Shown here piece after piece: positions 59,093 to 61,824 of a stretch of DNA of 64,000 nucleotides. Source of the DNA: an uncultured SAR116 cluster alpha proteobacterium (GTDB taxonomy: Bacteria; Pseudomonadota; Alphaproteobacteria; Puniceispirillales; Marisalimonadaceae). The stretch covers positions 1 to 64,000 of the forward strand of contig CACEFQ010000003.1 in NCBI GenBank assembly GCA_902558885.1. The letters are read 5' to 3'. The position numbers and the translations under genes are program-made. The notes beneath the pieces were generated by a model. It had not been told where the DNA came from. It worked only from the letters and a program-made list of their open reading frames with translations, and did not search any database. Numbering within the stretch: the stretch's first letter is position 1; each line of letters opens with the position of its first letter.

Positions 59093-59187
59093 AATAATTC
59101 TCCGTTAAAATTAATTGATAGCAAGATCTCTCGAATTTAATTTGTTTTAAAGATTGTATGGAATAAGTTGCCTATGATTTAGATAAA

Positions 59188-59204
59188 TGATTAATAATTA
59201 ATCA
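59188..59204. promoter_or_regulatory. Palindrome in amtB upstream region (copy 1)
   Basis: TGATTAATAATTAATCA is a perfect 17-base palindrome with a single central A, 96-112 bp upstream of the amtB start. The half-site TGATTAA recurs in copy 2 at 59227, 39 bp apart measured start to start. A binding site for an unknown regulator is possible; in AT-rich DNA chance occurrence is not negligible. Confidence 0.45.
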
Positions 59205-59224
59205 CAAAAAGACAAAAAAATATT

Positions 59225-59245
59225 AATGATTAAAAATTAATCATT
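59225..59245. promoter_or_regulatory. Palindrome in amtB upstream region (copy 2)
   Basis: AATGATTAA-AAA-TTAATCATT is a perfect 9-bp inverted repeat with a 3-base spacer. It lies between the half-length glnE stop and amtB. On the minus strand it is followed after a few bases by ATATTTTTTTG, so it could also be a weak terminator for glnE. It shares the TGATTAA half-site with copy 1. Confidence 0.45.
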
Positions 59246-59280
59246 TATTTTATTCTTTTATTTTCATAAATTAAGTATTT

Positions 59281-60777
59281 TTATTGGGTGATTTCAGATT
59301 CTAAAATTTTATTTAAAGTATTATAAATATCTATTTTTCCTTGACTGACTAACGCTTTCAATGAGCCAAGATCTTTTTCATCTAATTCGTTTATTAATAA
59401 ATTTACAGCAGCACTTGGCAAATTATCTTGTTTTTCTTTCATAAAACAAATATTAATTACTTGGTCTAATTTAAAAAAAACATTTTCTAGTCTTTTAAAT
59501 AGGAGTTGCTTTTTATCCTTTTCGTGTTGATCAATAATACTAGATTTATTTTCATAAAAAAATTTTAAAAATTCAATATCTCTTTGACCACCAGCTACAT
59601 ATTTTGTTTCAAACCATTTTGGTAAATCTTTTTTGTCTAACTTCTCAGATTCTTTTTTATTTTCATTAATATTTATTCTCATTTTTAAAATTTCGTGAGC
59701 CACTTCTTTGTCGGATATGGTACGAGAGTTTAATGTATTTAAAAGATGGGAAACTTTTGTACTAAATTTATTTTCTGTTATAACACGTGTTTTTTTTAGA
59801 GCTATTTTTTCCCAAGAATAAGCTTTAGTGTTATGATAGTTATCGAAATTTTTGTATGTACATGCAACAGGGCCACGATTCCTAGAAGGTCTTAATTTTG
59901 TATCGACTTCGTATAAAATACCCTCTGATGTTTTAGTAGATAATATATTTATTAAGTTTCGAAAAAAATCTATGTAAATTTTCTGGTTTAATTTATCACC
60001 ATAAATGAAAACTAAGTCTAGATCAGAATTAGCTGTCATATTAAAAGTTCCAAACCTTCCATAAGCAATTACGCAAAAATCCTCACAAACTAGCTTATAA
60101 TTATTCTGAGTGAGATGGTTAACAATTTGTAAAACGCAATCAATTGTAGCTTGGGCTAAGTTGGAAAATTCAGTTGAAGCTCTATCAATAGTAATTTCTT
60201 GATTTATTAAAGCATACAATATTTGAAATTTGAGTAATCTATGTTGCTTTCTTAATGTGTTTAACATTGTTTCAGTATCTAAACTATTGAAATTTATTTT
60301 TTCAAATAAATTTTTATAATAAGATATATTACCATTTAATCTTATTGCATATTCAGGTTGAATAACTTCAAGCAATTTTTGATCTCTAGAAAGTATGTTT
60401 GTTACATATCCAGAAAACAACAAAACTTTAGCTAGATTTTTATAAGTGAACGGTGAATTTTTAACCCTATCTAAATAATCTATATTTGAATTTATTTGAT
60501 TAATAAATCTCAAAAGTTGATATAATCCTTCATTTTTATTTTTATTTTGAAAAATAATTGGGATTATTTCTTGATATATAAAAATTAATTTTTGGTTTGT
60601 AATTTCAGAGAGATTGTTTTCAAAAAATTCCTTAAATAGTGATATACTTAATTTTTCTCCAATCTTACTAGACTTAATTATCTTATTAACAACATCTTCG
60701 ACAAATTTATTTTCTTCAAATTCTTCATAGTTTGTTAGTGGCAGGTTAATTGGCAAATTAAGTTTTTTATAAAGCAT
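59281..60777 (-). CDS. Half-length glutamine synthetase adenylyltransferase (GlnE, AT domain only)
   Basis: A 498-residue protein, about half the usual 950. Its nucleotidyltransferase motif is YGRFGTFNMTANSDLDLVFIY with Asp252 and Asp254. The following STKTSEGILYEVDTKLRPSRN matches the C-terminal adenylyltransferase (AT) half of GlnE rather than the N-terminal deadenylylase half, whose equivalent reads VFRVDMRLRPFG. The tail YVAGGQRDIEFLKFF fits the domain after AT. The first 230 residues are helical, with LRKQHRLLKFQILYAL as in the linker before AT. No deadenylylase half lies upstream: a divergent fbp gene starts 84 bp away. The predicted activity is addition of AMP to glutamine synthetase. 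Confidence 0.8.
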   Translation of the reverse strand: MLYKKLNLPINLPLTNYEEFEENKFVEDVVNKIIKSSKIGEKLSISLFKEFFENNLSEITNQKLIFIYQEIIPIIFQNKNKNEGLYQLLRFINQINSNIDYLDRVKNSPFTYKNLAKVLLFSGYVTNILSRDQKLLEVIQPEYAIRLNGNISYYKNLFEKINFNSLDTETMLNTLRKQHRLLKFQILYALINQEITIDRASTEFSNLAQATIDCVLQIVNHLTQNNYKLVCEDFCVIAYGRFGTFNMTANSDLDLVFIYGDKLNQKIYIDFFRNLINILSTKTSEGILYEVDTKLRPSRNRGPVACTYKNFDNYHNTKAYSWEKIALKKTRVITENKFSTKVSHLLNTLNSRTISDKEVAHEILKMRININENKKESEKLDKKDLPKWFETKYVAGGQRDIEFLKFFYENKSSIIDQHEKDKKQLLFKRLENVFFKLDQVINICFMKEKQDNLPSAAVNLLINELDEKDLGSLKALVSQGKIDIYNTLNKILESEITQ

Positions 60778-60861
60778 TCACAAACCAAGAAAAATTTATT
60801 ATCTTAAACAAACTTACATACGTTTTAATTTAGTTTCAATATTGTATTAGAAGAATTAAAA

Positions 60862-61824
60862 ATGGATCTAGAAAATTATTTAATAAAAAATTCTAAAGAA
60901 GAAGAGATTTCATCAATCATCAAATCATTAGCTGATGCTGCAATTAAAATATCTAATAATATAAGAAGTATCAAATTTCAGGATAGTTTCTCAAATAATG
61001 ATAGAAAATTAAATTCAGATGGTGATATTCAAAAACCATTAGATGTAATTTCAGATGAAATTTTGATTAGTTTTCTAGAAAAATCTCCTGCTGCAGGGTA
61101 TGCCTCCGAAGAGCAAGAAGGGTATATCAATTTTAAAAATAATAATAATTTTATTGTTTTCGCTGATCCACTCGATGGGTCAAGTAACATTGATGTAAAT
61201 GTTTCAATAGGCACTATTTTTTCGATAATGTCTAAAAATAATTTACCTTTAGAAAAAGCGTTTTTTCAAAATGGAAGTCATCAAAAATCATCAGGTTTTT
61301 TTGTTTATGGACCACAAACAACCTTATTTATTACAGTTGGGGTTGGAACATCTTTGTTCGCACTAGACGAAATAGAAGGTAAATTTATTCTAGTGAAAGA
61401 TAATATCACCATACCAGAAACAACTGCTGAATTTGCAATAAATGCTGCTTACAGAAGATTTTGGGACAGCGCAACATTAAAATATATTACTGAATGCCAG
61501 AATGGAGAAAGTGGATCGAGAAAGAAAAATTTTGGAATGAGGTGGGTTGGATCATTAGTAGCAGATGCTAGTAGAATTTTTAATCGAGGAGGTATTTTTT
61601 TATATCCATCGGATACCAGAGAAAAATATAAAAATGGAAGGTTACGTTTAACGTATGAAGCAAATCCAATAGCTTTTCTGGTAGAACAAGCTAACGGAGT
61701 AGCTACTGATGGACATAAAAATATTTTAAACCTAGAAGTCAATGAATTACACCAAAGATCATCATTAATTTTTGGTTCTAAAGAAGAAGTTTTAGAATAT
61801 AAAAAATCATATTCAAGTTTGTAA
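60862..61824 (+). CDS. fbp: Class I fructose-1,6-bisphosphatase
   Basis: Magnesium-dependent phosphatase of 320 residues that converts fructose-1,6-bisphosphate to fructose-6-phosphate. The metal-binding signature FADPLDGSSNIDVNVSIGTIFSI is at about residues 101-123, with EEQEG as an upstream ligand region and GMRWVGSLVADASRIFNRGGIFLYPSD later. It is the first of three collinear carbon genes with transketolase and pgk, consistent with gluconeogenesis; no phosphoribulokinase or Rubisco is visible to suggest a Calvin cycle. Confidence 0.94.
   Translation: MDLENYLIKNSKEEEISSIIKSLADAAIKISNNIRSIKFQDSFSNNDRKLNSDGDIQKPLDVISDEILISFLEKSPAAGYASEEQEGYINFKNNNNFIVFADPLDGSSNIDVNVSIGTIFSIMSKNNLPLEKAFFQNGSHQKSSGFFVYGPQTTLFITVGVGTSLFALDEIEGKFILVKDNITIPETTAEFAINAAYRRFWDSATLKYITECQNGESGSRKKNFGMRWVGSLVADASRIFNRGGIFLYPSDTREKYKNGRLRLTYEANPIAFLVEQANGVATDGHKNILNLEVNELHQRSSLIFGSKEEVLEYKKSYSSL

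Follow-up and report, generated by a model that had tools for sequence, protein, structure and literature searches.

Reversible adenylylation of glutamine synthetase (GS) is a textbook regulatory cycle, run by two opposing domains in one protein, GlnE. The C-terminal domain (AT-C) adds AMP to GS, the N-terminal domain (AT-N) removes the AMP by phosphorolysis, and the direction of the reaction is set by PII and PII-UMP (PMC12409994). Engineered C-terminal-only constructs (uATs) drive GS adenylylation in Azorhizobium caulinodans and Azospirillum brasilense, cause ammonia to be excreted and, in one of the strain backgrounds, almost abolish growth on ammonium (PMC9249168). So far as known, the AT-C-only design had existed just as this laboratory-engineered, growth-inhibiting construct; a search of the open-access literature yielded no description of a half-length GlnE in nature, which is apparently unreported there.

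The window, i.e., the whole 64-kb stretch of SAR116 DNA analysed, contains a half-length glnE on the minus strand (59281-60777) that starts with ATG and encodes the C-terminal, adenylylating half of GS adenylyltransferase in 498 aa. The protein consists of a weakly conserved, linker/regulatory-like N-terminal region (residues 1-112; 60442-60777, minus strand), a GlnE nucleotidyltransferase domain (residues 113-337; 59767-60441, minus strand) and a C-terminal helical region (residues 338-498; 59284-59766, minus strand), the last of which is PF08335-like in the C halves of full-length GlnE and gave no Pfam detection of PF08335 in the halves. The nucleotidyltransferase domain is the sole PF03710 domain of the protein (E 1.5e-37) and scores 129.8 bits, against a gathering cut-off of 24. 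It carries the catalytic residues S251-D252-L253-D254 (60016-60027, minus strand), which include the counterparts of S700, D701 and D703 of Escherichia coli GlnE, and the third acidic residue D292 (59902-59904, minus strand), the counterpart of E. coli D752; none of the 29 halves aligned deviates at the equivalents of S700, D701, D703 or D752. Alignment by hhalign places columns 30-503 of the halves against columns 465-959 of full-length GlnE, so that the central region of the latter is matched from about residue 30 onward and the alignment begins at the central linker and reaches the C terminus, in agreement with the first-pass annotation that the half starts with its own linker. An AlphaFold model computed from two sequences had a pLDDT of 34 and was discarded, and a scan for sigma-70 promoters and terminators returned nothing scoring above shuffled sequence.

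Several lines of evidence identify the half as the C-terminal part of GlnE. The full-length GlnE models of NCBIfam match it only in their C-terminal halves (positions 487-861 of 946 in PRK11072 and 525-984 of 986 in PRK14108), and its score falls below the equivalog cut-off (184 vs. 487 bits). Its best PDB match is 3k7d (E 5.6e-20), followed by 1v4a (E 1.1e-10), which are the adenylylation domain (AT-C) and the deadenylylation domain (AT-N) of E. coli GlnE, respectively. A profile of the 29 halves aligned better with the C half of 14 full-length GlnE proteins (463 columns, E 1e-43) than with their N half (284 columns, E 1e-14). In a maximum-likelihood tree of the domains, the N domains are separated from the C domains and the halves with support of 100/99. 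At alignment columns that tell N from C domains, the residue of the halves is of the C type or a third one, and virtually never of the N type; R690, T697, L702 and L787, for instance, are C states that are kept. The earlier claim that only the AMP-adding half is present is therefore borne out. Based on these results, we propose that the protein is probably a natural one-way GS adenylyltransferase conserved throughout its family, in which the off-reaction would have been kept and the dedicated on-reaction discarded.

The halves are also strongly divergent. They form one clade in the domain tree (100/100), whose long branch measures 2.07 changes per site, and their identity to the C domains of sister families is only 21-26%. 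At residue 294 (59896-59898, minus strand), which corresponds to E. coli R754, the arginine that is invariant in the N and C domains of all full-length GlnE proteins examined is replaced by lysine in 29 of 29 halves (VDTKL in the halves, VDMRL in full-length GlnE), and W780 of E. coli GlnE is replaced by F or Y. Given these two changes and the unrecognised PF08335, the substrate or the regulation of the half may have changed. A changed substrate is consequently the main rival reading, in view of the long branch, R754K in every half and the unrecognisable helical region; an active nucleotidyltransferase would then modify another protein or a small molecule instead of GS. The low identity to sister C domains and the alteration of other conserved positions point in the same direction. 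We nevertheless regard such a change as unlikely: the halves retain both the catalytic residues and the residues typical of C domains, GlnE is generally fast-evolving, with C domains of the sister families sharing just 31-39% identity with each other, and the same genomes still encode GlnD, PII and a GlnA with the target loop.

A genome-wide search found all the remaining components of the PII-GlnD-GS cascade. In the host genome, glnB lies directly upstream of glnA, and a canonical amtB-glnK pair is found on another contig (C4; L005, 185-1839). Both PII proteins, GlnB and GlnK, possess the T-loop tyrosine within RGAEY. In the host, a contig end truncates GlnD, which is complete in relatives and there about 925-970 aa long with nucleotidyltransferase (UTase) and HD motifs. 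Each of the family genomes examined encodes a single class-I GS, whose loop reads DLYELP (GlnA adenylylation-loop region: DQDLYELPASELANIPTV), so the adenylylation target is present, although its tyrosine may be conserved for other reasons. The gene next to glnE encodes an ammonium transporter of the marine subtype (TIGR03644; 57797-59092, minus strand), a paralogue distinct from the amtB of the amtB-glnK pair on C4; its description in the first-pass annotation as an amtB lacking the usual glnK was thus misleading. The idea of rewired nitrogen control, which this was said to strengthen, gains nothing from it: with amtB-glnK, an intact glnB-glnA and GlnD all present, any rewiring is confined to the GS adenylylation step.

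No room is left upstream for the other half, as had been noted from the sequence: the open frame has just 498 codons for amino acids, and 84 bp (60778-60861) separate it from the divergent gene for class 1 fructose-bisphosphatase (fbp; 60862-61824, plus strand). The same two facts and the equal length of the half in relatives rule out a split gene or a frameshift. On the other side, A+T-rich inverted repeats with 29-nt arms that are 83% complementary (59176-59283) were observed where 188 bp separate glnE from amt; they could be regulatory or a mere reflection of low G+C. In four relatives (L077, L080, L082 and L084), glnE and fbp are set apart by two extra genes, whose products have about 290 and 210 aa.

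Nor was a separate deadenylylase half, which would have overturned the first-pass reading, found elsewhere. In the draft host genome (1.65 Mb, 36 contigs, 76% complete), a search for a second GlnE domain at E<=10 returned just GlnD on contig C16 (E 0.003) and a chance match on contig C14 (E 0.2), the latter discounted as an AT-N gene because it falls within a ParA-like ORF. A search of the genus at E<=1 returned nothing beyond GlnD and one fragment that carries a stop (E 0.23). AT-C is thus present and AT-N absent, also in relatives that are 93-100% complete, and one nucleotidyltransferase domain, instead of the two that bifunctional GlnE combines in one protein, is found here and likewise in 40 family genomes. 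With the dedicated on-reaction discarded, PII-UMP would be left without a GlnE deadenylylase to activate.

Reversal could in principle be achieved by the half itself. A single active site might adenylylate GS and, when PII is uridylylated, remove the AMP by phosphorolysis; the N and C domains are homologous with identical catalytic residues, bifunctional one-site AMPylases such as FicD exist (PMC12663964), and GlnD is retained with both motifs, which keeps PII-UMP signalling meaningful. Sequence gives no support to such a two-way active site, and we think it improbable, since the halves bear no N-type signature residues, the two domains of E. coli GlnE are specialised (PMC12409994, PMC12663964) and C-only constructs work one way (PMC9249168). 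Alternatively, the half may adenylylate GS and an unrelated enzyme may remove the AMP, as deAMPylases outside the GlnE family are known, for instance RNase Z for SelO substrates and SidD (PMC12663964). This seems more doubtful still: E. coli RNase Z is inactive on GlnA-AMP (PMC12663964), and no candidate was identified in this analysis.

Conservation within the host SAR116 (Puniceispirillales) family agrees with a one-way adenylyltransferase under selection. Exactly one GlnE domain is found in 40 of 58 family genomes, distributed over four genera and including genomes at 93-100% completeness, and in 26 of the 40 genomes of the host genus. The frames are about 494-528 aa long unless cut by contig ends, the gene order acd-gdh-amt-glnE-fbp-tkt is kept in almost all relatives inspected, and pairwise dN/dS of the halves is 0.13-0.27, similar to that of the neighbouring fbp. 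Among the 18 family genomes without the half, fbp is also undetected in 13, and several others have fbp at or near a contig end. Assembly gaps therefore account for most absences, and true gene loss was set aside in favour of this simpler explanation. The half-length glnE is neither an assembly error nor a decaying gene: the 76% completeness of the host draft and the family of the order without a GlnE match give decay or artefact only a very slight chance against the same half in intact frames in 40 genomes of four genera, with conserved catalytic residues, conserved synteny and dN/dS of about 0.2.

In the samples taken outside the host family, GlnE is nearly always bipartite. Two further families of the order have GlnE; at least two domains are found in 64 of their 65 positive genomes, the exception being 51% complete, and usually reside in one protein of roughly 920-1000 aa. 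At least two domains also occur in all but one of the 196 other positive genomes of a class-level sample (at least 95% complete) and in all of the other 378 positive genomes of a phylum-level sample (at least 97% complete). Within these samples the half consequently appears to be restricted to the host family. The one exception at class level, genome G156, was rejected as another half-GlnE lineage, as it encodes a divergent two-domain protein of 776 aa. In the remaining family searched (f2), no genome matched GlnE, its listed members G058 and G059 both being negative. In these two drafts (86% and 61% complete, respectively), GlnD is present, the best PF00120 match has an E of about 1e-97 vs. 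1e-140 in relatives, and no canonical adenylylatable class-I GlnA is matched at the level of relatives; a different glutamine synthetase may be in use. Phylogenomic analysis of SAR116 described a low-G+C (about 30%), streamlined subclade known mostly from single-cell genomes, with the families AAA536-G10 and GCA-002684696, beside Puniceispirillaceae and UBA1172 (PMC8547437). The G+C content of the window (31-34%) fits placement of the host family in this subclade, and we infer that the host family is AAA536-G10 and f2 is GCA-002684696. The host has a named relative, SAR116 cluster bacterium AG-321-K23, at 88% identity.

Taken as a one-way adenylyltransferase, the half may have arisen through loss of AT-N from the glnE of an ancestor that gave rise to a single streamlined family of SAR116, the C-terminal half staying under selection as an adenylyltransferase presumably governed by PII and glutamine. 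When nitrogen is plentiful, it would attach AMP to the loop tyrosine of GlnA and inactivate GS. With GlnE deadenylylation gone, GS activity would return mainly through synthesis of new GlnA and dilution or degradation of the modified protein, or else by some eraser. As engineered C halves can harm growth (PMC9249168), a naturally occurring one must have low activity or be kept under tight control.

Stand-alone nucleotidyltransferases of the Pol-beta superfamily, such as MntA and DUF294, share the G..S-D-x-D active site with the half, whose sequence is, however, clearly that of GlnE (PF03710) and outside those families. With the AT-C of bifunctional GlnE (PDB 3K7D) it shares the sequence family, the catalytic residues, the linker-nucleotidyltransferase-helical layout, the length (498 aa each) and the accompanying genes for PII, GlnD and GlnA; it differs in its strong divergence, in R754K, in a helical region that PF08335 does not recognise and in the lack of any AT-N half in the host genome. 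An abundant ocean lineage without the reactivating domain suggests that the cycle can become one-way and then be maintained by selection, and raises the question of how slow-growing oligotrophs recover GS activity. Like the engineered uATs of A. brasilense and A. caulinodans, the SAR116 half has the C-terminal adenylylating domain alone. The uATs were made by truncation in the laboratory, turn off GS and can be detrimental to growth (PMC9249168), whereas the SAR116 half is natural, chromosomal, family-wide and under selection, and would be a tolerated equivalent, found in nature, of the C halves built to release ammonia.
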